From contig JAFEEK010000082.1 of assembly GCA_018241165.1 (NCBI GenBank), positions 1 through 15,896 on the forward strand: 15,896 bases of DNA, read 5' to 3'. The stretch's first letter is position 1, and each line of letters begins with the position of its first letter. This document shows positions 1,414 through 15,303 of this stretch, piece after piece. A program made the position numbers and the translations under genes. Below the pieces are notes generated by a model. That model had not been told where the DNA came from and did not search any database. It saw only the letters and a program-made list of their open reading frames with translations. This DNA is from Pseudomonadota bacterium (GTDB lineage: Bacteria > Pseudomonadota > Gammaproteobacteria > Xanthomonadales > Rhodanobacteraceae).

Positions 1414-1446
1414 CATGGCCGGCCCCGCCGGTTGGATGGAATCGGT

Positions 1447-2937
1447 ATGACGGTTTGCAGGTATCCGGTGGTTGCGGGCGCGATCGTGGCGACGTTGCTG
1501 CTTGCCGGCTGCGTGGTCGGCCCGGATTTCCACAAACCTGCGGCGCCGGATGTGAAAACGTACACGTCCGAAACAGTGCCGGCGCAGACGGCCAGCGCGC
1601 CGGTCGCTGGCGGGGCAGCACAACACGTCGAGAGCGGGGCGGATATTCCCGGCGACTGGTGGAAACTGTTCCAGTCGGCGTCCTTGAATGCTCTGGTCGA
1701 ACGATCGCTCAAGCAGAACCCGGACCTTGCCGCCGCGCAGGCGGCGTTGACTGCCGCGCATGAAAACGTGCTGGCGCAACGCGGCGCCTATTATCCGGCG
1801 ATCGATGCGGATGCCTCCGCGAACCGGCAGAAACAGGCGGGATCGCTGGCGCCGACGCCCGCGAACAACGCGATGCAATACAGCCTGTTCACGCCGCAGT
1901 TGAGCGTGTCCTATGTGCCGGACGTGTTCGGATTGAACCGGCGCACGGTCGAATCGTTGCAGGCCCAGGCACAGGGCGCACGATTCCAGATGATCGCTGC
2001 GCATATCGCGCTGACCGCGAACGTCGTGAACGCGGCAATTGGCGAAGCCAGTTTGCACGAACAGGTGAAGTCCACCGAGCAACTGGTCGATATCGAAACG
2101 CACGCCGTCGGGATTTTGCGCTATCAGTTCGAAAAAGGTTATGCGAGCAGGCTCGATCTCGCCGCGCAGGAGTCGCAACTTGCGCAGACGCAAGCTGCAT
2201 TGCCGCCGCTGCACAAGCAACTCGAGCAACAAAAGCACCTGATTGCGGTGCTCGCCGGCGAGTTTCCCGCGCAGGCGGCCGCCACCGATTTCGACCTGGC
2301 GGGTCTGACCTTGCCTCACGATTTGCCGTTGAGCCTGCCATCGCAATTGGTCGAACAGCGCCCTGATGTGCGCCAGGCACAAGCGAACTGGCACGCGGCC
2401 AGCGCGCAGGTCGGCGTCGCCATCGCCAGCCGCCTGCCGCAGATCACGCTGAGTGCGAACGCAGGCAGCACGGCGCTGGAAATCGGCAACGTGTTCAAGT
2501 CCGGCACCGGGTTCTGGGGCGTTGGTTTGGATCTTGCCGCACCGGTTTTCCAGGGCGGGAAATTGCTCCACGCCGAGCGCGCGGCCAAGGCGCAGCTCGT
2601 GCAAGCTGCCGCGCAGTATCGCAGCACGGTGATGACCGCGTTCCAGAATGTCGCCGACACATTGGTAGCGCTGGACGAAGATGCAAAGACCTTGCAAGCC
2701 GCATCCGCCGCCGCGGATGCCGCGAAAGTCACCCTCGATCTTGCGCAACGGCAGACGCAATCTGGATATGCGAGCGAGCTGTCGCTGCTCAATGCACAAC
2801 AGGCGTGGCAACAGGCACGCATGGCGCTGATTCAGGCACAGGCCAATCGCTACACCGACACGGCGGCGCTGTATCTGGCGCTCGGCGGCGGTTGGTGGCA
2901 TTACACGGATTTGACCGGGAACGATCATGAAAAGTGA
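1447..2937 (+). CDS. Outer-membrane efflux lipoprotein (NodT/OEP family), channel of RND system
   Basis: This is the outer-membrane channel of a tripartite efflux pump. The product starts with a lipoprotein signal peptide: a hydrophobic stretch ending in the lipobox LAGC, with C22 as the acylated cysteine. The family's typical VGPDFHKP follows. Two outer-membrane-efflux repeats then follow, at about residues 65-250 and 280-480. They are alanine- and glutamine-rich helices forming the periplasmic tunnel, with the family motif LVEQRPDVRQAQANW near residue 300. The 496 residues fit NodT-type channels (usually 460-500). The ATG at 1447 is chosen over a TTG five codons earlier because GGATGGA at 1434-1440 sits correctly before it and gives a normal signal peptide. 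The gene overlaps the next by 11 bases. Gene order (channel, adaptor, pump) is the czcCBA order. The substrate cannot be deduced from this subunit alone. Confidence 0.93.
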   Translation: MTVCRYPVVAGAIVATLLLAGCVVGPDFHKPAAPDVKTYTSETVPAQTASAPVAGGAAQHVESGADIPGDWWKLFQSASLNALVERSLKQNPDLAAAQAALTAAHENVLAQRGAYYPAIDADASANRQKQAGSLAPTPANNAMQYSLFTPQLSVSYVPDVFGLNRRTVESLQAQAQGARFQMIAAHIALTANVVNAAIGEASLHEQVKSTEQLVDIETHAVGILRYQFEKGYASRLDLAAQESQLAQTQAALPPLHKQLEQQKHLIAVLAGEFPAQAAATDFDLAGLTLPHDLPLSLPSQLVEQRPDVRQAQANWHAASAQVGVAIASRLPQITLSANAGSTALEIGNVFKSGTGFWGVGLDLAAPVFQGGKLLHAERAAKAQLVQAAAQYRSTVMTAFQNVADTLVALDEDAKTLQAASAAADAAKVTLDLAQRQTQSGYASELSLLNAQQAWQQARMALIQAQANRYTDTAALYLALGGGWWHYTDLTGNDHEK

Positions 2938-4060
2938 TTCACGCATTCGCGCACTGGCGATCTTTGCGCTGGCCTGCCTCGCCGGCTGTGCATCAAAGGC
3001 GAACGACGCGCCGCCGGCATCAACCAAGCCCAGCGACGTGAAGCTGAGCACGCAGCAACTCCAGCGCATCGTGCTGTTCACGGTCGCGGACGAACATTTC
3101 CACGAATCGATGCGCAGCAACGGCACGGTGGATTTCGACAATGAGCGCGCTACCGGCGTGCTCGCGCCGATGTCCGGGCCAGTGACGAAACTGCTGGTGG
3201 CACCGGGCGATCGGGTGCAGAAGGGACAGGCGCTGGCGCTGGTACATTCACCGGATTTCGCCGCCGCCGCCGGAGCGTATCGCAAGGCGCAGGCTGCCGC
3301 GACCAACGCACGTCGCATCGCCGACGTGGACAAGGATCTGCTCGCGCACAAGGGCGTGTCGGAGCGCGAAGCCGCGCAGGCGCAGTCCGATGCGATCGGC
3401 GCCGAGGCGGATGCGAGCGCGGCGTTGCAGGCACTGGTCGCGCTCGACATCGATCCGAAAGCTCTCGACGCGCTGCGGCAGGGCAAGGCCGCGCCGCAAA
3501 TCGAAGGCGTGATCCGCGCGCCGCTGGCCGGCACCGTGGTCGAACGTCTGATCGCGCCCGGCCAACTTCTTCAAGCCGGCACCACGCCGTGTTTCACCAT
3601 CGCCGATCTGTCGCGCGTGTGGGTAATGACGCAGTTGTTCGGCGACGATGCGAATCGGGTAAGCGCAGGCGATACCGCGCATGTCGATGCGGGTCCGACA
3701 ACGCTCGAAGGCACGGTGACGAATGTCGCTGCCGAGGTCGATCCCGCCACGCGTGCGGTGCTGGCGCGCGTGAGCGTCGACAATCCGCACGGTGTGTTGA
3801 AAAAACAAATGTACGTGCCGGTGACGATCGTCTCACGCAAGGACAGCACCGGCCTGCTGATCCCCGCCGCGGCCGTCCTGCGCGACGACGAAAACCTTCC
3901 GTTCGTGTATGTCGCGCAGGCCGATGGCGGATTTGCGCGGCGCCCGGTCGTACTCGGTTACCACGACGGCGAGCATGACCTTGCCAGCGAAGGCTTGCAT
4001 GCCGGCGACAAGATTGTCGCGCAAGGCGCCATCTTCCTGCGTTTCATCGAAACCCAATGA
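2927..4060 (+). CDS. Periplasmic adaptor (membrane-fusion protein) of RND efflux system, CzcB/CusB-like
   Basis: The adaptor joins the inner-membrane pump to the outer-membrane channel. The 377-residue protein begins with a lipoprotein signal peptide ending LAGC (C21), so it is probably membrane-anchored. A first half-lipoyl/barrel segment lies around residues 65-110 (GVLAPMSGPVTKLLVAPGDRV). An alanine-rich alpha-helical hairpin at about 112-165 contacts the channel. The second half-lipoyl motif (GVIRAPLAGTVVERLIAPGQ) spans roughly 190-210. The beta-barrel and membrane-proximal domains end at GAIFLRFIETQ. Helical hairpin length and spacing match CzcB/CusB-type adaptors. No N-terminal His- or Met-rich metal-binding segment and no C-terminal metal-binding domain is seen, so metal specificity is not visible in this subunit. 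It starts inside the end of the channel gene (11-base overlap), and its stop shares ATGA with the pump gene. Both point to translational coupling. Confidence 0.92.
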   Translation: MKSDSRIRALAIFALACLAGCASKANDAPPASTKPSDVKLSTQQLQRIVLFTVADEHFHESMRSNGTVDFDNERATGVLAPMSGPVTKLLVAPGDRVQKGQALALVHSPDFAAAAGAYRKAQAAATNARRIADVDKDLLAHKGVSEREAAQAQSDAIGAEADASAALQALVALDIDPKALDALRQGKAAPQIEGVIRAPLAGTVVERLIAPGQLLQAGTTPCFTIADLSRVWVMTQLFGDDANRVSAGDTAHVDAGPTTLEGTVTNVAAEVDPATRAVLARVSVDNPHGVLKKQMYVPVTIVSRKDSTGLLIPAAAVLRDDENLPFVYVAQADGGFARRPVVLGYHDGEHDLASEGLHAGDKIVAQGAIFLRFIETQ

Positions 4061-7000
4061 GCGACGAAACCTTGCCCGGCGGCGCGCAGCTGCGCACGCC
4101 TTCGCTGATCAACCGCATCGTCGCGACCGCGCTGGAGCAGCGTTTCCTGATCGTGTTGCTGGCCTTGATCCTGTTTGGCGCGGGCTGGTGGTCGCTCGAA
4201 CGCCTGCCGATGGATGCGTATCCGGATCTGTCGCCGCCGATGGTCGAAGTCATCACGCAATGGCCTGGACATTCGGCCGAGGAAGTCGAGCGACTGATCT
4301 CGGTGCCGGTCGAATTGGCAATGAACGGCCTGCCGAAGCTGGCGACGAAACGCTCGATCTCGCTGTACGGACTGTCCGATGTCACCCTCACCTTCGACGA
4401 CGGCACCAACAACGACTATGCGCGCCAGCATGTGCTCAACCGCTTCGGCGACATCACCCTGCCGAGCGGCGTGACGCCGTCGATTTCGCCGCAGTCGTCG
4501 CCGTCGGGATTGATCTATCGCTACGTGCTGCAAAGTTCCGACCGCTCGCCGATGGAGCTGAAAACCATCGACGACTGGATCGTCGCGCCGCAGTACCGCT
4601 CCGTGCCCGGCGTCGCCGACGATTCCGGTTTCGGTGGCGGCACGATGCAATACCAGGTGCTGCTGGATCCGGCAAAAATCGCCGCGACCGGATTGTCGGT
4701 CGCGCAGGTGCAGGCCGCGCTGGGCGCGAACAACTCCAACGCCGGCGGCGGCTTCTATTCGCAGGGCGGGCAGTTCTACTATGTGCGCGGCCTCGGCCGC
4801 ATCGAAACGCTGGACGACATCGGCAACACCGTGCTGGCCGTGCACAACGGCACGCCGGTGCTGGTGAAGAATGTCGGCCGCGTGCAGATCGGCATCGCGC
4901 CGCGCCTCGGCGAATTCGGCTACATGGATCACAACGACGCTGTCGAAGGCGTGATCCTGATGCGCACCGGCGAGAAAACGCAGAACGTGCTCAAGCGCAT
5001 CGAGGCGAAGACGCAGGAGATCAATTCCGCGATCCTGCCGCCGGACGTGAAGGTTCATCCGTTCTACGACCTTAGCAACCTGATCCACGAAACCACGCAG
5101 GTCGTGCAGCGCAATCTTTTGCACGGCATGTTGCTGGTCGTCGTCGTGCTGATTTTCTTCCTCTACGATTTGCGCGCCGGGCTGATCGTCGCGGTCACGA
5201 TTCCCTTGTCGCTGTTGTTCGCGTTCTGTTGCCTCGACTTGCAAGGTGCGTCGGCAAACCTGCTGTCCATCGGCGCGGTCGACTTCGGCATATTGGTCGA
5301 CGGAGCGATCTTCATGGTGGAGAACATCTTCCGCCAGCTCGCGCTGCGCGAAGGCAAACCGCTCGATGCCAAAGGACTGGTCGAGGTCATCAAGGATGCC
5401 GCCGCGGAAGTGGATCGTCCGCTGGTGTATGCGGTCGCGGTGATCGTCGCGAGCTTCCTGCCGATCTACGTGCTGACCGGGCCATCCGGCACGCTGTTCA
5501 GGCCCATGGCGGACACCATGATCTTCGCCCTGATCGGCTCGCTGATCGTCACGCTTACGCTGTTGCCGGTGCTGTGCGCGTGGTTCATGCGCCGCGGCGT
5601 GCGCGAGCGGCGCAACCGCATTTTCGAGGCTATCAAGGCGGCCTACACACGCGGGCTGGATTTCTGCCTCGCGCGCGCACGCGCCACGACGCTCGCCTGC
5701 GGCGCGATCCTTGCGCTGTCGCTGCTGCTGGTGCCGTCCATCGGCGCCGAATTCATGCCCAAGCTCGACGAAGGTGCGCTGTGGGTGCGCGCGACCATGC
5801 CATACACGATCTCCTACGACGAAGCTGCGAAAATCTCGCCGCAGATCCGCGCGATCCTGCGCTCGTTCCCGGTCGTCACCACGGTGACCTCGGAACTCGG
5901 TCGCCCCGACGACGGCACCGATTCGACCGGATTCTTCAACGACGAATTTTTCGTCGGCCTGAAACCGTATGCGCAATGGAACGGCAAGTATCGCAACAAG
6001 GCCGAATTGATTGCGGCGATCGACAAGAAACTGCAGGTGTTTCCCGGCATCCAGTTCAACTACACGCAACCGGCCGAAGACGCGGTGGACGAAGCCGAAA
6101 CCGGCCTGAAGAGCGCGCTCGCGGTAAAGATATTCGGCCCCGACCTGCACACCCTGCAGGACAAGGGCAAGGCGATCAAGCAGGTGATGGAGCATGTGCG
6201 CGGCATCGGCGACGTGACCCTGGTGCATGAACTCGGCCAGCCGAGCCTCGCGATCAAACTCGATCGCAGCAAGTTGGCGCGCTACGGACTCAACGTCGAC
6301 GACGTCAATGCGATGATCGAAGCCGCGATCGGCGGCAGCGTGGCGACGCAGGTCGTGCAGGGTGAAAAGGAGTTTGATCTCGTCGTGCGCCTGGACCGCC
6401 AGTACCGCGACAATCCGCAGGAAATCGGCAACATCCCGATGGCCACGCCGGACGGCGCGCAGATTCCGCTCAGGGAACTTGCCGACATCGGCATCGCCAA
6501 CGGCGCCTCGTTCATCTATCGCGAAAACAATTCGCGCTACATCGGCGTGCAATTCTCGGTGGCCGGCCGCGATCTCGCCGGCGCGGTGGAAGACGCGATG
6601 GCGCAGGTGGCCAAGCAGGTGAAGATGCCGCCGGGTTACCGGCTGGACTGGGGCGGCGAATACAAGCAATACACGGCCTCGCGCGCGCAGATGAACGTGA
6701 TCCTGCCGGTGACCTTGTTCGTGATCTTTCTGCTGCTGTTCGTGTTGTACGGCAACATCAAGTTCCCGTTCATCACCGTGCTCGGCGTGCTGCTGTCCGC
6801 ACCGGCCGGCGGCATCCTCGCGCAGTGGCTGACCGACACGCCGTTCTCGGTATCGTCCGGCATCGGCTACATCGTGCTGTTCGGCGTCTCGGTGCTCACC
6901 GCCGTCGTCTACATTTCCTATGTCAATGAATTGCGCCGCGGCGGCATGGCGATGGATGCGGCGATCCGCGAAGGCGCGATCCTGCGCCTGCGCCCGATCA

Positions 7001-7191
7001 TGATGACCGCGCTCGTCGCCGCGCTCGGCCTTCTTCCTGCCGCGCTCGCCAGTGGCGTCGGCACCGATTCGCAGCGTCCGTTCGCACTGGTCATCGTCGC
7101 CGGCATGCTCACGCGTCTTGCGTTGAGCGTGTTCCTGATGCCGGCGTTGTATGCGCTGGTGGCGAGGGAAGGGGATCGCCTCGAAGTGTAG
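4057..7191 (+). CDS. RND efflux pump, heavy-metal efflux (CzcA/CusA-type) permease
   Basis: This is a proton-driven inner-membrane pump of 1044 residues, the normal length for HME-RND proteins. Twelve transmembrane helices are expected. TM1 is at about residues 29-48, TM2-TM6 at about 355-510 and TM7 near 545-565, and the second set begins near 880. TM4 contains VDFGILVDGAIFMVEN, placing acidic residues at D409, D415 and E422. They match the proton-relay residues D402, D408 and E415 of CzcA. The DFG-VDG-VEN pattern is that of divalent-cation pumps (Zn, Co, Cd, Ni) rather than the Cu/Ag pump CusA. The first large periplasmic loop carries the family's PMDAYPDLSPPMVEV near residue 51. The second loop has GRPDDGTDSTGFFNDEFF, and I see no obvious CusA-like methionine relay there. 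It overlaps the adaptor gene by ATGA. Its TAG stop lies at the edge of a palindromic repeat. The transport substrate is inferred, not proven. Confidence 0.92.
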   Translation: MSDETLPGGAQLRTPSLINRIVATALEQRFLIVLLALILFGAGWWSLERLPMDAYPDLSPPMVEVITQWPGHSAEEVERLISVPVELAMNGLPKLATKRSISLYGLSDVTLTFDDGTNNDYARQHVLNRFGDITLPSGVTPSISPQSSPSGLIYRYVLQSSDRSPMELKTIDDWIVAPQYRSVPGVADDSGFGGGTMQYQVLLDPAKIAATGLSVAQVQAALGANNSNAGGGFYSQGGQFYYVRGLGRIETLDDIGNTVLAVHNGTPVLVKNVGRVQIGIAPRLGEFGYMDHNDAVEGVILMRTGEKTQNVLKRIEAKTQEINSAILPPDVKVHPFYDLSNLIHETTQVVQRNLLHGMLLVVVVLIFFLYDLRAGLIVAVTIPLSLLFAFCCLDLQGASANLLSIGAVDFGILVDGAIFMVENIFRQLALREGKPLDAKGLVEVIKDAAAEVDRPLVYAVAVIVASFLPIYVLTGPSGTLFRPMADTMIFALIGSLIVTLTLLPVLCAWFMRRGVRERRNRIFEAIKAAYTRGLDFCLARARATTLACGAILALSLLLVPSIGAEFMPKLDEGALWVRATMPYTISYDEAAKISPQIRAILRSFPVVTTVTSELGRPDDGTDSTGFFNDEFFVGLKPYAQWNGKYRNKAELIAAIDKKLQVFPGIQFNYTQPAEDAVDEAETGLKSALAVKIFGPDLHTLQDKGKAIKQVMEHVRGIGDVTLVHELGQPSLAIKLDRSKLARYGLNVDDVNAMIEAAIGGSVATQVVQGEKEFDLVVRLDRQYRDNPQEIGNIPMATPDGAQIPLRELADIGIANGASFIYRENNSRYIGVQFSVAGRDLAGAVEDAMAQVAKQVKMPPGYRLDWGGEYKQYTASRAQMNVILPVTLFVIFLLLFVLYGNIKFPFITVLGVLLSAPAGGILAQWLTDTPFSVSSGIGYIVLFGVSVLTAVVYISYVNELRRGGMAMDAAIREGAILRLRPIMMTALVAALGLLPAALASGVGTDSQRPFALVIVAGMLTRLALSVFLMPALYALVAREGDRLEV

Positions 7192-7404: not shown

Positions 7405-8163
7405 ATGCTCAAGGTTTGCGTGGCGGCACTGGGTGCCGCAGGTTTGCTTGCCGCCTTTTCGGCGCAAGCGATAACGGCGGATGAACTGATCGCCAAAAAC
7501 GCAGCCGCACGCGGCGGGCTGGACAAGATCGAGGCGATCAAGACGCTCAAATTCGAAGGCAATCTGCGCGTCAGCGGCGACTTCGGGTCGTTCCAGCTCA
7601 CGCTGGTGCAATACCAGAAGGCGCCGGACTCGGTGCGCACCGAGGCCACGGTGCAGGGTCTGACGCAGATTCAGGCGTGGGACGGCCACGAAGCGTGGCA
7701 GATCTCGCCGTTCCAGGGCCGCCGCGATCCGGAACGCATGTCCGCCGACGACGCCAAGTCGCTGGCAGACGGCGCGCCGATCGCAGGCTCGCTCATCGGC
7801 TACAAGGCGCGAGGCAGCCAGGTCGCGTATCAGGGCACCGAGGATGTCGACGGCACCAACGCCTACAAACTCAAGGTCACGCTGGGCAACGGCGACGTCC
7901 AGTACGTGTATCTGGATCCGGATGCCTATCTCGAAATCCGCACCGTGAGCCAGATCGAGGTGCGTGGCACGCAAAGCGAAACGATTTCCGATTACGGCGA
8001 CTACGAACAGGTCGCCGGCGTGTACTTCCCGTTTTCGATCACCGCGCGCAGCAAGGATGGCGGCGGCGGCACCACCACCATTTCCATCGACAAGGGCGAA
8101 GCCAATGTTGCGGTCGCCGATTCCCTGTTTGCATTTCCGGCCGCGGCCAAGGTGAGCCCATGA
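7405..8163 (+). CDS. Exported LolA-like (outer-membrane lipoprotein-sorting type) protein
   Basis: This 252-residue protein has a Sec signal peptide. Its hydrophobic stretch ends SAQA, with cleavage expected after A22. The mature protein begins ITADELIAKNAAARGGLDKIEAIKTL, typical of the COG2834 LolA-like superfamily rather than of true LolA. The body is a run of antiparallel strands (QLTLVQYQKAP, VQYVYLDPDAYLEIRTV, YFPFSITARS) expected to form the half-open beta-barrel that binds lipid acyl chains in this fold. It ends with a glycine-rich loop (DGGGGTTT) and a last strand. Housekeeping LolA is shorter and usually sits near lolB or ftsK-type genes, so this is probably a specialised paralogue. 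The ATG is supported by GGGGAG at 7393-7398. It overlaps the following gene by ATGA, so the two products are probably made together. Function is unknown; lipid or lipoprotein handling is an inference from the fold. Confidence 0.8.
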   Translation: MLKVCVAALGAAGLLAAFSAQAITADELIAKNAAARGGLDKIEAIKTLKFEGNLRVSGDFGSFQLTLVQYQKAPDSVRTEATVQGLTQIQAWDGHEAWQISPFQGRRDPERMSADDAKSLADGAPIAGSLIGYKARGSQVAYQGTEDVDGTNAYKLKVTLGNGDVQYVYLDPDAYLEIRTVSQIEVRGTQSETISDYGDYEQVAGVYFPFSITARSKDGGGGTTTISIDKGEANVAVADSLFAFPAAAKVSP

Positions 8164-11100
8164 ACATGCATCGCACCTCAAGCCTGCTCGCTGTCGCGTG
8201 CGCCCTTGGTACGTCGCTCGCATTGGCCGCGCCCGCCGACAACGGCATCGCCCACTTCGATTCTGGCGCAATCTCCGGGTTGGGCATGCGCAACATCGGC
8301 TCGGCCGCGATGAGCGGTCGCGTCGCGGCGCTCGCGGCGGTTGCCGGCAAGGACGGCAAGACCTTGCTGTATGTCGGCGCCGCTTCCGGCGGCGTGTGGA
8401 AATCCACCGACGGCGGCACCACGTTCAAGCCGGTGTTCGATCGCGAGCCGGTGCAATCGATCGGCGCGATCGCGATCGATCCGAAGAACACGAACACGGT
8501 CTGGGTCGGCACCGGCGAAAGCTGGACGCGCAATTCGGTGTCGGTCGGCAATGGCATCTACAAGTCGACCGATGGCGGCGAGTCCTGGACCCACATGGGT
8601 CTGCCCAATTCCGAACGCATTGCACAGATCATCGTCGACCCGAATGCGGACAGCACCGTGTACGCCTGCGTGCCGGGCAAGTTGTGGAGCGATTCGGCCG
8701 AGCGCGGTTTGTACAAGACCACCGATGGCGGGGCGCACTGGAGCCTGGTACTCAAGGGCGAGAATCTGTCGACCGGCTGCGCCTCGATCAGCATCGATGC
8801 GCAAAAACCGAGTACGATTTTCGCGTCGCTGTGGGACTTCCGGCGCAAGGGCTGGACGTTCCGCTCCGGCGGCGAATCGCCGACCGCAAAATCCGGCAGC
8901 GGCCTGTTCCGCTCCGACGACGGCGGCACGTCGTGGACGCAAATCACGCCCGCGGCGAACAAGGGCTTTCCGCCGAAGCCCTATGGCCGCATCGCGGTGA
9001 CGGTGGCGCCGTCGGACGCGAAGATCGTGTACGCGTTCGTCGAATCCACCGACTCGGCGCTGTTCCGTTCCGACGACGGCGGCAAGACCTGGGACAAGCG
9101 CGACAAGAGCCAGATGATGGTGTGGCGCCCGTTCTATTTCGCACGCCTGATCGTGGATCCGAAGAATCCCGAGCGCGTGTTCAAACCCGATCTCAACCTG
9201 GTGCAAAGCCTCGACGGCGGCAAGAGTTTTTCGCCATCGGGCGGCGGCACGCACGGCGATCACCATGTCGTGTGGATCGATCCGACCGATACCAAGCATG
9301 TGTACACCGGCGACGACGGCGGCCTGTGGCAGTCCTTCGACGGCGGCAACAAGTGGTGGAAGCAGAACAATCTGCCGATCTCGCAGTTCTATCACGTCAG
9401 CGTCGACGACGCCGATCCGTTCCACGTCTACGGCGGCTTGCAGGACAACAGCTCCTGGGTCGGCGCCAGTGCGTTCCCCGGCGGCATCGCCAACGCGCAG
9501 TGGGAAAACATGTACGGCGGCGACGGTTTCTGGATGTTTTCCGATCCGGCCGATCCCAACTACCTGTACGCCGAAGCACAAGGCGGCACCATCGGTCGCG
9601 TCAACCGGCATACGCACGAGATCCGCAGCATCCAGCCCGAAGCCGGCTACAACGAGAAGCTGCGCTGGAACTGGAACACGCCGATCGCGCTGTCGCCAAA
9701 CGACAAGAACGCGCTCTACATCGGCGCGCAGTTCCTGTTCCGCACGCGCGATCACGGCCAGAGCTGGCAGCGCATCTCGCCGGACCTGACCACCAACGAT
9801 CCGGCCCGGCAGAAGCAGGAAGAATCCGGCGGCGTGACGGTCGACAATTCCGCCGCGGAGATGAACACGACGATCTACTCGATCAGCGAATCGCCGAAGG
9901 CCGCTGGCGAAATCTGGGTCGGCACCGACGACGGCAACGTGCAGCTCACGCGCGATGACGGCGCGCACTGGACGAACCTGATCGGCAACATCAAGGGCGT
10001 GCCGAAGGGCTCGTGGGTGTCGTGGGTGCAGGCCGGAAACTTCGACGCCGGCACCGCCTATGTCGCCTTCGATCGGCACAGCTTCGGCGACATGGCGCCG
10101 TACATCTACGCTACATCCGACTACGGCAAGAACTGGACCGCGCTGGTCACTCCGCAGGATGCGAAGGGTTTGCACGGCTATGTGCACGTGGTCAAGCAGG
10201 ACACGGTCAAGCCGAACCTGCTCTACGCCGGCACCGAGTTCGGGCTGTGGGTTTCGATCGATGGCGGCAACCACTGGGCGCAGTTCAAGGCCGGCAATTT
10301 CCCGGCCGTGGCGGTGCGCGACATCGCCTTCCAGAACCGCGACGCTTCGCTGGCGCTGGCCACGCACGGCCGCGGTATCTGGATCGTCGACGACCTGACG
10401 CCGTTGCGCGCGCTCGACGAGAAAGCGCTCGACAGCGAATTCGCGTTCCTGCCGGTCAGGCCGATCCAGCAACGCATCAGTGCGCAGGGCGGCTGGCCCG
10501 AGGGCGATGCATCGTTCACCGGGCCTAACCCGCACAGCGGGGCGGAAATCGCGTACTACCAGAAATCGAGGCATTTGTTCGGCAAATTGAAGATCGACAT
10601 CCTCGACGCGAACGGGACGGTGATCGACACGCTTCCCGCGAATGTCCGCCGCGGCATCAATCGCGTGTTCTGGCCGATGACCGCCAAGCCGCCGCGCGTG
10701 CCGCCGGCGGCGCAGGTCGCGTTCAATTCCACGCAGGGCGCGCGCGTGCCGCCCGGCACCTACGCGGTGCGCATGACCAAGGGCAAGGAAACGTTCGAGA
10801 CGAAGATCGATGTCGGCCTCGACCGCCGCGCGACCTACACCGCAGTCGACCGCCAGGCGCAGTACGACGCCGCGCAGCGCGTCAGTGCGTTGTTCGGGCG
10901 CATGAGCGATCTCGTTTACAAGATCGGCGCGGTGCGGGCACAGGCCGGTGCGGTGGCCGCAAACAAATCCGCCAGCGAAGGTTTGCGCAAGCAGATGACC
11001 GACCTGAACGCCAAGGCGGACGAGATCCGCAAGAAGATCGTGGCGACCAAAGAAGGCGGCGCGATCACCGGCGAGGAACGCCTGCGCGAGCACATGGATA

Positions 11101-11360
11101 CGCTATACGGCGCGATCATGTCCTACGACGGCAAGCCGTCCGACTACCAGCTCGCGCGCATCGACACGCTCGCGCGTGAACTGGGCGACGTCGAGAAGCA
11201 ATTCGCCGATTTCGAGAAGACGGATTTGCCAAAGGCGAACGCCACGCTGAAGTCCGACAAGCTTCCGGCCATCGCCGTGCCGGCTGCCGCGCCGGCGCAG
11301 GACGGTGGCGGCAGCGCCGAAGCGGCGAAGGCGTATTTCAGCCGCGCCGAGCGGGATTGA
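8160..11360 (+). CDS. Secreted Asp-box (BNR/VPS10-like) beta-propeller protein, 1066 aa
   Basis: This large exported protein begins with a signal peptide (hydrophobic to about residue 23, ending LALAA). Repeated Asp-box motifs, S/T-x-D-x-G-x-x-W/F, fill roughly residues 80-760. Clear copies are STDGGTTF (S82), STDGGESW (S136), TTDGGAHW (T187), SDDGGTSW (S252), SDDGGKTW (S304), SLDGGKSF, SFDGGNKW, TRDHGQSW, TRDDGAHW, TSDYGKNW and SIDGGNHW. These mark the turns of beta-propeller blades as in sialidases and sortilin/VPS10 proteins. I do not see the sialidase catalytic arginine triad, so catalysis is doubtful. A beta-sandwich-like segment follows near residues 810-900 (LKIDILDANGTVIDTL, FlgD/Ig-like). 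A charged helical, probably coiled-coil region at about 905-1030 and an alanine-rich tail complete the protein. The start ATG lies in the stop region of the LolA-like gene (ATGA). Many such proteins are annotated as glycosyl hydrolases without experimental support. The role is unknown; binding or surface processing is plausible. Confidence 0.82.
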   Translation: MNMHRTSSLLAVACALGTSLALAAPADNGIAHFDSGAISGLGMRNIGSAAMSGRVAALAAVAGKDGKTLLYVGAASGGVWKSTDGGTTFKPVFDREPVQSIGAIAIDPKNTNTVWVGTGESWTRNSVSVGNGIYKSTDGGESWTHMGLPNSERIAQIIVDPNADSTVYACVPGKLWSDSAERGLYKTTDGGAHWSLVLKGENLSTGCASISIDAQKPSTIFASLWDFRRKGWTFRSGGESPTAKSGSGLFRSDDGGTSWTQITPAANKGFPPKPYGRIAVTVAPSDAKIVYAFVESTDSALFRSDDGGKTWDKRDKSQMMVWRPFYFARLIVDPKNPERVFKPDLNLVQSLDGGKSFSPSGGGTHGDHHVVWIDPTDTKHVYTGDDGGLWQSFDGGNKWWKQNNLPISQFYHVSVDDADPFHVYGGLQDNSSWVGASAFPGGIANAQWENMYGGDGFWMFSDPADPNYLYAEAQGGTIGRVNRHTHEIRSIQPEAGYNEKLRWNWNTPIALSPNDKNALYIGAQFLFRTRDHGQSWQRISPDLTTNDPARQKQEESGGVTVDNSAAEMNTTIYSISESPKAAGEIWVGTDDGNVQLTRDDGAHWTNLIGNIKGVPKGSWVSWVQAGNFDAGTAYVAFDRHSFGDMAPYIYATSDYGKNWTALVTPQDAKGLHGYVHVVKQDTVKPNLLYAGTEFGLWVSIDGGNHWAQFKAGNFPAVAVRDIAFQNRDASLALATHGRGIWIVDDLTPLRALDEKALDSEFAFLPVRPIQQRISAQGGWPEGDASFTGPNPHSGAEIAYYQKSRHLFGKLKIDILDANGTVIDTLPANVRRGINRVFWPMTAKPPRVPPAAQVAFNSTQGARVPPGTYAVRMTKGKETFETKIDVGLDRRATYTAVDRQAQYDAAQRVSALFGRMSDLVYKIGAVRAQAGAVAANKSASEGLRKQMTDLNAKADEIRKKIVATKEGGAITGEERLREHMDTLYGAIMSYDGKPSDYQLARIDTLARELGDVEKQFADFEKTDLPKANATLKSDKLPAIAVPAAAPAQDGGGSAEAAKAYFSRAERD

Positions 11361-11484: not shown

Positions 11485-11946
11485 TCAATCCGCGCCATGC
11501 AATCCAAGCCGGCGCGCGATGCGATGGTCGAGGCTGGCCTTGCCCGGCCCGGCGATGAACAGCCAGAAGAAGATCAGGATGTAGAGGAACTCGTCGAGTT
11601 CGACGAATTCGTCCAGACCCGACACGTTCTTGATCACCACGAATGCGATGGCCACGATCATGTTGAACGCCATCACCAACGAAGTGAAGCGGGTGAGCAG
11701 GCCGAGGATCAGCAAAGCCCCGCCCACGAATTCCACGCCGGCCGACAGCGGCGCGCTCCACATCGGATACGGCAGGCCCCAGTCGACGAAGCGTGCGATC
11801 GCGCCGTCGAGGTTGTGCAGCTTGCCCCAGCCGGTTTCCAGCCAGAAATAGCCGAATCCCAGGCGCAGGACCAGCGGGCCCAGCCAGCGCAGGCGCGCGC
11901 AGGCATCGATCAATCGTTGTTGGCATTGCAGCAGTCGGGCGAACAT
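11485..11946 (-). CDS. DoxX-family inner-membrane protein, candidate BufD of bufferin locus
   Basis: This 153-residue protein has four predicted membrane helices: LGPLVLRLGFGYFWLETGWGK, LSAGVEFVGGALLILGLL, LVMAFNMIVAIAFVVI and FLYILIFFWLFIAG. It shows the DoxX family's ETGWGKLHN and EFVGGALLILGL motifs. DoxX proteins such as BufD/HvfD are frequent partners of DUF692/DUF2063 RiPP metallophore clusters, and an electron-transfer or quinone-linked role has been proposed but not settled. The ATG at 11946 is chosen because GGGGAAA precedes it. The longer frame to 12051 would add a basic, non-membrane extension with no ribosome site. It is transcribed away from the precursor gene across a 256-base shared upstream region, and its own terminator follows at 11396-11370. 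Family membership is clear; the link to the bufferin pathway rests on neighbourhood. Confidence 0.88.
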   Translation of the reverse strand: MFARLLQCQQRLIDACARLRWLGPLVLRLGFGYFWLETGWGKLHNLDGAIARFVDWGLPYPMWSAPLSAGVEFVGGALLILGLLTRFTSLVMAFNMIVAIAFVVIKNVSGLDEFVELDEFLYILIFFWLFIAGPGKASLDHRIARRLGLHGAD

Positions 11947-12202
11947 GAATTTCCCCTTGTCGGACTTGCGGTTGCGGGATGGTACGTGCTGTCGGGCAAA
12001 ACTGACCCGCCTTGCAGCGAAAATCTTTCGCGCCGCAACATGGATTTCCACGCGGGGTTAACAGTGACTGCGTAATATCCGCATGGGGTGAAAGATGACG
12101 TTGCCTTCGCGGGTCTTGAATACGTCCGCGGCATGGCTGTCCACTTGGGACCGGCAACGCGCGACATCCACTCCACGACAATTCCCAATCAGAGGACTTC
12201 CC
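11947..12202. promoter_or_regulatory. Divergent control region between doxX-like and bufA2-like genes
   Basis: This 256-base spacer must hold the promoters for both the DoxX gene (minus) and the precursor gene (plus). A perfect inverted repeat, GCGAAA-ATC-TTTCGC, lies at 12017-12031, 71 bases upstream of the DoxX ATG, and is a possible regulator site. TAATAT at 12073-12078 is a possible -10 in either direction, with no convincing -35. Bufferin operons in Caulobacter are controlled by an ECF sigma factor, but I could not recognise a confident ECF-type promoter pair here. AGAGGA at 12191-12196 is the ribosome site of the precursor gene. Small open frames in this stretch have no family resemblance and are not called. 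Confidence 0.45.
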
Positions 12203-12469
12203 ATGAAAGCTTCCGCCATCAAGAGTCTCGCACTCGCCACCGCCGTCGCCGGCTTGTTCGCGGTGACCACTGCCAGCGCGGCGAATGCCACCGCCGGCGA
12301 TCAGGCCCAGGTGAAATGCATGCATTCGACCGCATGCAAGGGTTCGGGTGCGTGCAAGACCAAGGCAAATTCCTGCAAAGGCCAGAACTCGTGCAAGGGC
12401 CAGGGCTTCACCATGCAGAAGGACGCAGCTTCCTGCAAAGCCGCGCAGGACGAAGCAAAGGCCAAGTAA
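12203..12469 (+). CDS. Bufferin-type RiPP metallophore precursor, BufA2-like, six cysteines
   Basis: This 88-residue precursor has a full Sec signal peptide (MKASAIKSLALATAVAGLFA to about A26, site ASA), so the peptide is made for the periplasm. The mature part is small, lysine-rich and has six cysteines at residues 39, 45, 51, 58, 64 and 78. Five sit in a semi-regular array, Cys-x5-Cys-x5-Cys-x6-Cys-x5-Cys, built from CK repeats, including CKGQNSCKGQGF. In described bufferins, DUF692 enzymes convert conserved cysteines to thiooxazole rings, and the product sequesters copper. The small CK-rich precursor followed by DUF692 and DUF2063 genes identifies this one as BufA2-like. The ATG at 12203 is set by AGAGGA seven bases upstream and by the signal peptide; a longer in-frame start at 12095 is rejected. 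The first motif reads KCMHSTACKG, where I expect tyrosine-glycine after the first cysteine. An intrinsic terminator follows. Which cysteines are modified is unknown. Confidence 0.86.
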   Translation: MKASAIKSLALATAVAGLFAVTTASAANATAGDQAQVKCMHSTACKGSGACKTKANSCKGQNSCKGQGFTMQKDAASCKAAQDEAKAK

Positions 12470-12484
12470 GTCGATTCACGAAGC

Positions 12485-12522
12485 GCGGCGGCCGGTGCGT
12501 ATTCGCCGGCCGTCGCCTTTTT
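12485..12522 (+). terminator. Intergenic terminator/attenuator between bufA2-like and bufB-like genes
   Basis: GCGGCGGCCGG (12485-12495) pairs with CCGGCCGTCGC (12506-12516), giving eleven pairs with one G-U around a 10-base loop, followed by five T at 12518-12522. It stands 15 bases after the precursor stop and ends four bases before the bufB-like ATG. It should end most transcripts after the precursor and let a minority through to the enzymes, as in other RiPP operons where precursor must exceed enzyme. Confidence 0.8.
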
Positions 12523-12526
12523 CGCC

Positions 12527-13375
12527 ATGACGAAAACATCCGACCCGCGTTTCCCCTCACTGGGCTTTGGCCTGGGCTTGCGTGCGGATCATTACGATGC
12601 CTTGCTCGAACCGCAACCGCGCATCGACTGGCTTGAAGCGCTTTCCGAGAATTACCTTGTCCCCGGCGGCAAGCCGCTGGACTGGCTGCGCCGCATGCGC
12701 GAGCGCTATCCGGTCGTGTTGCACGGCGTGTCGTTGTCGATCGGCAGCCACGATCCGCTTGACTTGGACTATCTGACCGCGCTGAAGAAACTTGCCGATT
12801 CGATCGAGCCGGCATGGATGTCCGATCACCTGTGCTGGACCGGTGCGCACGGCCGCAACCTGCACGACCTGCTGCCGCTGCCGTACATCGAGGAAGCGAT
12901 CGCGCATGTCAGCGATCGCGTGCGCGAGGTACAGGATTTCCTTGGCCGGCGCATCGCGCTGGAAAACGTTTCCAGCTATGCCGAGTTCAAGGCGTCGACG
13001 CTGAGCGAGTGGGAATTCCTCGCCGCGATCGCCGAGCGCGCCGATTGCCTGATCCTGCTCGACGTCAACAACATCCATGTCAGTGCGCACAACCACGGTT
13101 TCGATGCACGCGAATACCTCGCCGGCATTCCGCCGCGGCGCGTGCAGCAGTTCCACATCGCCGGACACACGTTCCAGAACAACCTCATCATCGACACCCA
13201 CGATCAGCCCGTGTCCGATCCGGTTTGGGATTTGTATGCCGATGCGGTGCGCCGCTTCGGTGCGGTGTCGACCATGATCGAGCGCGACGACAACATCCCG
13301 CCGCTGTCCGAACTCGTCGCCGAACTCGACCACGCGCGCGCCATCGCCGAGCCGATCTTGCGGGCCGCGGCGTGA
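12527..13375 (+). CDS. bufB: DUF692 multinuclear non-heme iron enzyme (MNIO), BufB-like
   Basis: This enzyme belongs to the MbnB/BufB family of TIM-barrel oxidases that use a di- or tri-iron centre and oxygen to remodel cysteines of a peptide. The 282-residue length is usual. Motifs with likely metal-ligand residues appear in order: EALSENY (E41), VLHGVSLSIGS (H66), SDHLCW (D100, H101), LPLPYIEEA (117-124), ALENVSSY (E146), LLDVNNIHVSAHNHGFD (D179, N182, H184, H188), HIAGH (H210, H214), IDTHDQPV (D223, H225) and IERDDNIP (E252). Together these form the complete DUF692 signature, with no obvious missing ligand. The substrate is presumably the CK-rich precursor encoded just upstream. The ATG at 12527 has no recognisable ribosome site, because the preceding bases are the terminator hairpin and T-tract. 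Translation may therefore depend on hairpin opening or a leaderless mechanism. The stop overlaps the next gene as GTGA. Confidence 0.95.
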   Translation: MTKTSDPRFPSLGFGLGLRADHYDALLEPQPRIDWLEALSENYLVPGGKPLDWLRRMRERYPVVLHGVSLSIGSHDPLDLDYLTALKKLADSIEPAWMSDHLCWTGAHGRNLHDLLPLPYIEEAIAHVSDRVREVQDFLGRRIALENVSSYAEFKASTLSEWEFLAAIAERADCLILLDVNNIHVSAHNHGFDAREYLAGIPPRRVQQFHIAGHTFQNNLIIDTHDQPVSDPVWDLYADAVRRFGAVSTMIERDDNIPPLSELVAELDHARAIAEPILRAAA

Positions 13376-14163
13376 GCGTGCTGGCACCGCTGCAGGATGC
13401 GTTTCAGCGTCGCATTCTCGATGGCGGCGTCGACATGGCCATCCTCGATGGCGTCGTCGGCAATGCGATTGCGGATGCCGGCGAGCGCGTCGGCGTGTAT
13501 GTGTACGCTTATGCTGCGCGCCTCGTCGAGGCGCTGGGCAACGACTATCTGACCTTGCGCTTTGCCGCAGGCGACGAAACCTTCGAGCAACTGTGCCGCG
13601 ACTACGTGATGGCGACGCCATCGATCCATCGCAATGTGCGCTGGTACGGGCGCGGCCTTGCGGAGTTTCTTCGTGCGACCGCGCCGTGGAAGCACACGCC
13701 GGCCCTTGCCGAACTCGCTGCGCTGGATTGGGCGATCGGATTGTCGTTCGACGCGTTGGACGAAGAAGGCATCGCCGAGGCGGACATCGCCGCCATTCCG
13801 TTCGAGCGTTGGGGCGAGATGATCCTGCGCCTGCCGCGGCACGTGCAGCGCGAGAGGTTTGCGTGGAACGTCGGCGAGGTGCGCCACGCCCGCGATCATG
13901 CACAGCCGTGTCCGCCGTTGCAGCGGGTGCAGTTTCCGCAAACCTGGATTTTTTCGCGCAAGGATCTCGAAGTGCATTACCGCGCGCTGGAATCCGACGA
14001 AGCGGCTGCGCTCGATGCCATCGCTGGCGGACGTCCGTTCGAAGCAATGTGCGCGGCGCTGTGCGACTGGCACGCGCAGGAAGATGTCGCCCTGCGTGCC
14101 GCCGGCCTGCTCAAGGCCTGGATCGGCAACGGCTGGATCGCTGCGGTCGCGTCGCCGGATTGA
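13372..14163 (+). CDS. bufC: DUF2063 (HvfC/BufC-like) partner protein of the MNIO enzyme
   Basis: This 263-residue protein has the DUF2063 N-terminal helical domain (LAPLQDAFQRRIL at the start, YVYAYAARLVEALGNDY near 43-59, YVMATPSIHRNVRWYGRGLAEFL near 78-100). The C-terminal part shows strands such as LQRVQFPQTWIFSRKD and a last helical section. DUF2063 proteins form complexes with DUF692 enzymes (HvfC/BufC, analogous to MbnC) and help recognise and bind the precursor peptide; they have no catalytic metal site of their own. The start is the GTG at 13372, which overlaps the bufB-like stop by four bases (GTGA). This gives a normal family N-terminus, whereas the frame upstream is only antiparallel-free shadow of the enzyme gene. 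A GTG two codons later is a weaker alternative. The next gene is an unrelated porin with its own leader, so this is the last gene of the cluster. The assignment is firm by family and context. Confidence 0.92.
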   Translation: MSVLAPLQDAFQRRILDGGVDMAILDGVVGNAIADAGERVGVYVYAYAARLVEALGNDYLTLRFAAGDETFEQLCRDYVMATPSIHRNVRWYGRGLAEFLRATAPWKHTPALAELAALDWAIGLSFDALDEEGIAEADIAAIPFERWGEMILRLPRHVQRERFAWNVGEVRHARDHAQPCPPLQRVQFPQTWIFSRKDLEVHYRALESDEAAALDAIAGGRPFEAMCAALCDWHAQEDVALRAAGLLKAWIGNGWIAAVASPD

Positions 14164-14274: not shown

Positions 14275-15303
14275 ATGCGCCATTCCCCGATCGCCGCCGC
14301 GCTCGCAGCAGCCCTGATTACTTCCTCTGCCTTCGCGCATGCGGATGTTCTTGCGGACACCACGATCAGCGGCAAGACTTTCATCGACTTCACCAGCATC
14401 GACCAGACCAGGAACGGAACCGACACCGCCAATGCCGGCACCGGCATGGACGTCAAGCGCTTCTATCTCGGCGTCGAGCACAAATTCGACGACGTCTGGT
14501 CGGCCGGATTGACCACCGATTTCAACTACACCTCGAGCAGCGGCGAGACCCAGGTGTTCGTGAAGAAGGCCTGGGTGCAGGCCAAGCTCAGTGATGCATT
14601 CAAGCTGCGCGCAGGCGCCGACGACATGCCGTGGATTCCGTATGTGGAGGGCCTGTACAACCTGCGCTATGTCGAAAACACCCTGATCGACCGCCTCAAG
14701 TACGGCACTTCGTCCGACTGGGGCCTGCATGCTTTCGGTGGCGGCAATGACCTGTGGGCCTACAACATTGCCGCCGTCAATGGCGCCGGCTACAAGAATC
14801 CGTCGCGCGGCAACAATGTCGACGTCGAAGGCCGATTCGCGATCACCCCGCTGAAGGGCCTGAGTTTCGCGGTCGGTGGCTACAGCGGGGAACTTGGCAA
14901 GGACACGGCGAATCTGCCGGCCGGATCCACGCGCACCGCGAAGCGCCTGGATTTCGTCGCCGCCTACGTGAATCCGCAATTCCGCGTTGGCGCCGAATAT
15001 TTTCGCCAGAACAACTGGAACAATGTACTCACCAGCGGGCCGAAAGATTCGGCCGACGGCTACTCGGTGTGGGGACAGTACAAGTTCGCGCCGGAATTTT
15101 CCGCCTTTGTGCGCTACGACCACGCCAACCAGAGCCGTGACATCAATCCGAAACTCAAGGACACCTACTACAACGCCGGCATCGAATGGATCGCGCGCAA
15201 GGGCGTGCGCCTGGCGGCTGTGTACAAGCACGAAAATCTTGCCGACGCCGTCAACACGACCAAGAGCAACGAAATCGGCGTGTGGGCGGAAGTCGCGTTC
15301 TGA
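14275..15303 (+). CDS. Outer-membrane porin, possibly OprO/OprP-like
   Basis: This is a 342-residue beta-barrel porin. The Sec signal peptide covers about residues 1-23 (ending AFAHA). Many alternating amphipathic strands follow (for example KRFYLGVEHKF, VWSAGLTTDFNY, QVFVKKAWVQAKL, YSVWGQYKF, FSAFVRYDH). The last strand EIGVWAEVAF ends in phenylalanine, the signature recognised by the BAM machinery. Loop sequences rich in Asn, Gly and Asp fit extracellular loops. The strand pattern resembles phosphate-selective or carbohydrate porins of the OprO/OprP type, but the basic arginine ladder that proves phosphate selectivity cannot be judged by eye. GGAG ten bases before the ATG supports the start. 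It is monocistronic, with a strong terminator 30 bases after the stop. There is no evidence that it belongs to the bufferin locus, although a porin could admit the metal or small solute. Family is likely; substrate is unknown. Confidence 0.85.
   Translation: MRHSPIAAALAAALITSSAFAHADVLADTTISGKTFIDFTSIDQTRNGTDTANAGTGMDVKRFYLGVEHKFDDVWSAGLTTDFNYTSSSGETQVFVKKAWVQAKLSDAFKLRAGADDMPWIPYVEGLYNLRYVENTLIDRLKYGTSSDWGLHAFGGGNDLWAYNIAAVNGAGYKNPSRGNNVDVEGRFAITPLKGLSFAVGGYSGELGKDTANLPAGSTRTAKRLDFVAAYVNPQFRVGAEYFRQNNWNNVLTSGPKDSADGYSVWGQYKFAPEFSAFVRYDHANQSRDINPKLKDTYYNAGIEWIARKGVRLAAVYKHENLADAVNTTKSNEIGVWAEVAF

Follow-up and report, generated by a model that had tools for sequence, protein, structure and literature searches.

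Toward one end of a 15,896-nucleotide contig from a member of the Rhodanobacteraceae (JAFEEK010000082.1 in assembly GCA_018241165.1; this whole stretch is the window referred to below), four genes, doxX, bufA, bufB, and bufC, together occupy positions 11485–14163 (Table 1) and appear to constitute a bufferin cluster, directing the production of a ribosomally synthesized and post-translationally modified peptide (RiPP). As a first-pass annotation of the DNA had proposed, an exported precursor with six cysteines, an MNIO (DUF692) enzyme, and a DUF2063 partner are encoded contiguously on the plus strand, each passing a curated or Pfam cut-off, and a DoxX gene lies directly upstream on the opposite strand, 256 bp from bufA. 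Scores for BufA2, BufB, HvfX, HvfB, and MbnB were judged against the NCBI curated cut-offs, and the E-values of the family matches, from 6e-16 (bufC) to 5e-115 (bufB), are far beyond chance. Pfam assigned bufB to MbnB_TglH_ChrH, doxX to DoxX, and bufC to DUF2063; it returned no family for BufA at an E-value of 0.001, and no NCBIfam model matched bufC, which directly follows the MNIO gene, with a 4-nucleotide overlap between its GTG start and the bufB stop. By inspection only, BufA carries a Sec-type signal (a lysine, a hydrophobic core, and Ala-x-Ala), and five of its six cysteines are followed by lysine. The DoxX protein presumably has the membrane topology of its family. BufA2, the MNIO, and DoxX each had a single match in the window's own assembly (89.55% complete, 515 contigs).

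Table 1. Genes and noncoding features of the bufferin cluster, by position in the window
Feature	Position	Strand	Details
doxX (bufD-like), putative ETG-subfamily DoxX membrane protein	11485–11946	-	153 aa, ATG at 11946; PF07681, 71.5 bits (cut-off 23.6)
Divergent intergenic region, doxX/bufA	11947–12202	.	256 bp, start codon to start codon
Promoter-like bipartite block YGAAAG-N17-GGTC toward doxX	12004–12030	-	84 bp before the doxX ATG
Promoter-like bipartite block YGAAAG-N17-GGTC toward bufA	12089–12115	+	113 bp before the bufA ATG
bufA, Buf2 precursor	12203–12469	+	88 aa, six Cys; NF050166 BufA2, 67.2 bits (cut-off 60)
Hairpin with U-tract between bufA and bufB, terminator-like (candidate attenuator or 3′ stabilizer)	12485–12516	+	
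bufB, MNIO (DUF692) maturase	12527–13375	+	282 aa; NF050167 MNIO_BufB, 383.2 bits (cut-off 310)
bufC, DUF2063 (PME1-type) partner	13372–14163	+	263 aa, GTG start; PF09836, 59.0 bits (cut-off 27.2)

Judged by its sequence, this is a bufferin-2 (Buf2, Cys-Lys) cluster, of a kind already described. The text of PMC12452194 presents Buf2 bufferins (Buf_6/12Cys) as exported precursors with six or twelve cysteines, encoded in the order bufABC in clusters that have DoxX among their core genes and lack sigma and anti-sigma genes. The window shares the exported six-cysteine precursor, the bufABC order, the MNIO, the DUF2063 protein, and DoxX, and no sigma gene was found among the window genes scanned. 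It departs from the description in having doxX head to head with bufA on the opposite strand. In the main text of that paper (figures and supplements lie outside this scope) the word "opposite" does not appear and "divergent" is found a single time, in the title of a reference, and none of the papers among the matches listed in the open-licence literature, as represented by titles and the starts of abstracts but not by figures or supplements, dealt with Buf2 in these genera or with a divergent doxX.

The enzyme was closest to the solved relative 3bww (E 1.8e-51), which has ERDFN where the window has ERDDN, and the change from Phe to Asp after the catalytic Asp has been reported as a mark of Cys-Lys MNIOs (PMC12668002). 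This replacement and the Cys-Lys motifs of the precursor are shared with the Cys-Lys group of captophorins (BufA2B2C2) of the same paper. The statement in the first-pass annotation that known clusters of this type make thiooxazole-containing, copper-binding peptides agrees with what is reported there of Buf2-type relatives, which have 5-thiooxazoles and bind copper; FonBC, a Lys-Cys enzyme, did not process cysteines that precede a charged residue (PMC12668002). The DVNN and DTH segments of the window MNIO appear to hold counterparts of the HvfB site 3 residues, named as N175, D242, and H244 (PMC13419390). With the oxazolin/Hvf system (HvfABC-X) the cluster has in common an MNIO, a DUF2063 protein, and a DoxX-like protein, but its MNIO scored below the HvfB cut-off (288.7 of 360), and its 88-residue BufA contains none of the EGKCG repeats of oxazolin/HvfA. 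MNIO oxidation of cysteine for copper binding would, by analogy, be shared with methanobactin (MbnABC), whereas the MbnB score was 80.6 (cut-off 325) and the window has an exported precursor and a DUF2063 partner instead. The bufferin-1 type, with a four-cysteine DUF2282 precursor, does not describe BufA, with its six cysteines and its lack of a Pfam family.

The divergent orientation of the fourth gene, pointed out in the first-pass annotation, is real but is not a peculiarity of this genome, as emerged when gene order was compared among genomes with BufA2 matches: the cluster is conserved, and a divergent doxX is common. BufA2 matches were obtained in 132 of the 233 genomes of the family (the window's own counted among them), 91 of them above the cut-off. 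We mapped 91 loci, chosen rather than random (30 returned by the search, 60 selected from its list, those of the same genus first and the rest from a range of genera, plus the window), among which doxX is divergent in 38, upstream on the same strand in 34, downstream on the same strand in 13, lacking in five, and otherwise placed in one. All seven same-genus genomes that have a BufA2 match, out of 16 from the genus, carry the divergent set. The intergenic length is 225–361 bp in 37 of the 38 divergent loci, that of L053 not having been correctly measured, and with L053 left out each of the 37 correctly paired loci encodes a six-cysteine BufA. Conservation across many genera led us to reject the notion that a divergent doxX is special to this genome.

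The residue after the catalytic Asp of BufB is itself an Asp in 38 of 38 divergent loci, in 32 of 34 with doxX upstream on the same strand, in three of four without doxX, and in none of the 13 with doxX downstream. This last group (L074–L086, doxX after bufABC) has BufA2 scores below the cut-off (29.8–33.5 bits), and its clusters are probably Buf1-like, as judged from the precursors of two of them and from the Gln or Thr that follows the catalytic Asp. At another locus (L043, 5022–5474) we observed a duplicated, twelve-cysteine Buf2 precursor with a DoxX gene of a distinct, WAGWGK type upstream on the same strand.

The DoxX proteins of the divergent loci resemble one another in sequence. When aligned, they display the motif FGYFWLETG, with a nearly invariant Leu, the acidic residues D112, E116, and E119, and a GPG motif, and they have no conserved cysteine, a lack that speaks against their acting as thiol oxidases through cysteines of their own. 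At the position of FGYFWLETG, the DoxX proteins encoded upstream on the same strand have SGRTK (two outliers set aside). The window DoxX fell below the HvfX cut-off (NF050144, 64.5 bits versus 80), as did seven others from three architectures (47.0–73.8 bits). From these traits we infer that the proteins with FGYFWLETG, here called ETG-type DoxX, form a dedicated subfamily. HvfX has been called "yet uncharacterized" (PMC13419390), and DoxX has been suggested as a possible further factor in copper binding (PMC12668002). The Buf2 branch offers a clean case for the role of DoxX, with a recognizable subfamily that is linked to a single type of precursor and has both in-operon and divergent genes.

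Scanning named genomes by means of a DoxX alignment yielded 78 loci, 66 of them with ETG-type DoxX. In 53 of the 66, doxX is divergent from bufABC (52 as scored, together with L254, which was counted by hand from its coordinates because its bufA frame overlaps doxX), and in nine it is on the same strand as the buf genes, eight in the order bufABC–doxX and one in the order doxX–bufABC; L204 is mixed, and L207, L208, and L211 have no buf gene. Relatives of the window DoxX thus also terminate ordinary bufABC–doxX operons. Divergent loci include those of Dyella, Rhodanobacter, Dokdonella, Rudaea, Frateuria, Pseudolysobacter, and Solimonas aquatica, and operon loci those of Pseudoxanthomonas, Stenotrophomonas, Solimonas flava, and Hydrocarboniphaga effusa. 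Among 11 loci with other DoxX proteins, none had buf genes within 4 kb on each side (less at contig ends), and one locus lacked DoxX. In a tree of 67 ETG DoxX proteins the divergent label requires four changes, which is compatible with one or more origins.

The four genes also hold together as a unit. We sought 12 window proteins in 40 stretches (37 divergent loci and three longer ones, most with about 5 kb of flank), and only doxX, bufA, bufB, and bufC were present in all 40; the others included a Vps10 protein in four, a pump in two, a porin in one, and nth in one. BufB trees of 75 and 89 rows and a DoxX tree of 86 rows sorted by architecture better than every label shuffle, an outcome to which close relatives contribute. 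With the other window genes not conserved beside the cluster, the trees in agreement, and 62 of the 66 ETG-type DoxX genes adjoining buf genes, it is highly improbable that DoxX is an unrelated neighbor lying outside the system, even though a cluster of ABC genes only, that for fontiphorin, suffices for modification in E. coli (PMC12668002) and DoxX is beside bufA2 in only two of 60 class-wide loci. Those 60 loci, from 59 genomes, are mostly the best-scoring rows of a class search in which 97 of 369 genomes (own included) had BufA2 matches. A Pfam search of 51 of these genomes found DoxX in 48; by its coordinates it adjoins the same two loci and one strong bufA2 copy outside the 60 (G462:C7), and it often lies about 2 kb or less from weak, Buf1-like BufA2 matches, as in G352, G325, and G414.

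The first-pass annotation held that precursor homologs without DUF692 neighbors would count against its reading. Such copies exist, yet their existence does not discriminate: bufA without bufB was seen in eight of the 60 class loci, within the stretch examined and with some cut by contig ends, and the nearest MNIO gene to the BufA2 copy at L040 is about 5 kb off, but the text of PMC12452194 reports both that precursors occur apart from MNIO genes and that genomes with Buf_6-12Cys precursors and no MNIO number 0 of 864.

How might doxX and bufA be controlled? A MAFFT alignment of the 38 divergent intergenic regions revealed conserved blocks. In the genus of the window, the pattern YGAAAG-N17-GGTC, which was first noticed by eye so that its genus counts are not independent of that, is found on both strands in six of six close loci (window included), the paired blocks starting 57–59 bp apart and the bufA-side one lying 112–114 bp before bufA. 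Its bipartite spacing we take to be like that of promoters for extracytoplasmic function (ECF) sigma factors. L039 has the bufA-side block only (at 111 bp), and L041 and L042 the doxX-side block only. At an orphan bufA in G223 (L040), which was not used to draw the pattern, a block lies 109 bp before the ATG. The strict pattern occurs at exactly two sites in the window's own genome, both in this intergenic region. Across the 16 genus genomes there are 35 sites in 14, with 10 in buf regions, as compared with 7 for a reversed-pattern control; some of the 25 sites elsewhere recur between genomes or sit inside long frames.

Another version of the blocks, with a sequence unlike that in the genus, is shared by a clade of 25 loci from Dyella, Rhodanobacter, and their kin; here, at three widths, none of 300 shuffles that permuted the conserved letters gave consensus blocks on the two strands as alike as those observed. 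It is on this consensus test that the likeness of the blocks rests; a single-locus test of 30-base inverted similarity was weak, and most loci did not exceed their shuffles. Among 52 divergent regions from the DoxX scan, 28 repeat regions already mapped and 24 were held out. Both Dyella/Rhodanobacter blocks were found in 22 of these 24, which are mostly from close relatives, at 143–168 bp on the bufA side and 92–104 bp on the doxX side, although in one of the 22 (L223) the doxX side did not surpass the top-scoring shuffle overall; neither block is present in L213, and L237 has only a degenerate bufA-side one. Allowing three or fewer mismatches, the bufA-side clade block occurred once, and always before bufA, in seven of eight genomes and was absent from G101; all eight had contributed to the block, and only its uniqueness there is a result.

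The two oppositely oriented blocks are alike, on moderate evidence, and such a pair, conserved within clades, suggests a control region shared by doxX and bufA. The blocks could instead belong to a structured RNA leader, for which the 111–168 bp between the bufA-side block and the ATG leave room; in the genus, the leader is also slightly more stable when folded than its shuffled versions (z -2.5). This we consider improbable: the 25-locus clade yields no consensus fold (alifold 0.0), and no Rfam family exceeded its cut-off, one match of 24.2 out of 47 bits being taken as chance. As DNA sites, the conserved region would offer short, testable targets for the study of Buf2 regulation.

The first-pass annotation had taken the divergence as a sign of different timing or dose for the membrane component; on such a view the divergent doxX would be a rearrangement that lends DoxX a separate timing or dose. 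It is true that doxX sits on its own strand behind a promoter region of its own, that 256 bp would permit independent control, and that the two blocks are similar rather than identical. But the gene order is conserved over many genera, similar blocks stand on both strands at distances that are steady within clades, and nine of the 66 ETG-type relatives are on the bufABC strand. We regard separate timing or dose as unlikely and no longer favor that suggestion; the divergent doxX is a conserved arrangement and is probably switched on with the peptide genes.

A step in dose is more likely inside the plus-strand unit, at the hairpin between bufA and bufB, than at DoxX. Every one of the 38 divergent bufA–bufB gaps folds with an energy lower than the mean of its shuffles (z -0.6 to -6.5, mean -3.3). 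A terminator-like form, strictly defined, is present in 10 of the 38 (138 of 1,520 shuffles), in 8 of 32 gaps from loci with doxX upstream on the same strand (69 of 1,280), and in 24 of 46 class gaps (403 of 1,840). Within the genus the stem is kept, with four two-sided changes, three one-sided changes, and one broken cell of 66 (alifold z -13.5), and in other genera the structure is kept with unrelated stem sequence. The hairpin would fit an attenuator or a stabilizer that favors precursor over enzyme.

Together, these observations lead us to a reading to which we assign a probability of roughly 85%: a copper-buffering Buf2 RiPP cluster in which doxX encodes a dedicated, co-controlled membrane partner and the hairpin sets bufA expression above that of bufB. 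BufA would be made in the cytoplasm and presented by BufC to the MNIO BufB, which would oxidize cysteines of BufA, probably those in Cys-Lys, to 5-thiooxazoles. The modified peptide would then be exported by Sec and bind excess periplasmic copper, the chemistry, the export route, and the binding being proposed by analogy with relatives. DoxX would serve as the dedicated membrane partner of the Buf2 branch, here encoded on the opposite strand, with an equivalent promoter-like block in the same intergenic region governing its expression, and the hairpin may keep precursor output above enzyme output. Copper itself might be incidental, with the cluster handling another metal or stress (gold, mercury, or oxidative): MerC fusions and gold-linked clusters are noted in PMC12452194, and a CusA/CzcA-family efflux system is encoded about 4 kb away in the window. 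Characterized relatives bind copper, however (PMC12668002), and the pump is beside the cluster in only one relative, G216 (L192), though most stretches reach only about 5 kb; we judge this alternative unlikely.

Several results weigh against the favored reading, that of a copper-buffering cluster with a co-controlled DoxX. Neither genus-pattern block is present in 29 of the 38 divergent loci. The 25 of 35 strict genus sites that lie outside buf regions outnumber the 7 of the reversed control, and because of them the pattern is not confined to buf genes in the genus. The two blocks are moderately alike: at the three widths, the likeness observed in the genus was equaled by 12, 2, and 6 of 300 shuffles, and the best 30-base inverted pair of the window (0 of 30 shuffles) is not the two reported blocks. 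U-tracts of the terminator-like kind are found in only 10 of the 38 divergent gaps. The rarity of DoxX beside bufA2 in the class means that the core chemistry can do without it. Finally, the Microbulbifer mmr cluster (MNIO/DUF2063, of the Lys-Cys type) is reported to have gone undetected in proteomes whether copper was added or not (PMC12538549), so copper induction is not to be assumed.

A more specific proposal, which we offer tentatively and hold to be less likely than not, is that in the Rhodanobacteraceae and some relatives Buf2 clusters have evolved a dedicated bidirectional control region, in which a regulator reads two equivalent sites of opposite orientation and so switches on bufABC and a Buf2-specific DoxX subfamily, the ETG type, together; that DoxX has its action at the membrane, on the mature copper peptide; and that a hairpin conserved in structure sets the ratio of precursor to enzyme. 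The sites that the genus pattern has outside buf regions lower the odds of this proposal. Two features may be new, the control region and the close association of one DoxX subfamily with Buf2.

We note in addition some observations on other loci and on the neighborhood of the cluster. The orphan BufA2 copy of G223 (L040, C19, 5041–6302) is preceded by an ECF sigma gene and a small open reading frame. This sigma gene, the only ECF gene followed up, had no match in the window's own genome at E 1e-20 and had matches in five same-genus genomes without a BufA2 match, and we set it aside as a candidate regulator; sigma genes are reported in Buf1 but not in Buf2 clusters (PMC12452194). The same genome, at L040 (7768–8046, minus strand) and L204, also has a second, DUF2282-like precursor with four cysteines, as judged by eye, with a separate doxX–bufB–bufC set about 1.8 kb away. 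In the window, a three-gene heavy-metal efflux system (1432–7191, plus strand) comprises an outer membrane factor, an adaptor, and the CusA/CzcA-family pump (TIGR00914, 911 bits; cut-off 701). A large Sortilin-Vps10/BNR-repeat protein is encoded at 8157–11360 (plus strand), ending just before doxX, and adjoins the cluster in three close relatives only. Directly 3′ of bufC is a gene for a Porin_O_P-type porin (14275–15303, plus strand), which is beside the cluster in G216 only, and a tRNA-Asn gene (gtt) is located at 1202–1276 on the plus strand.

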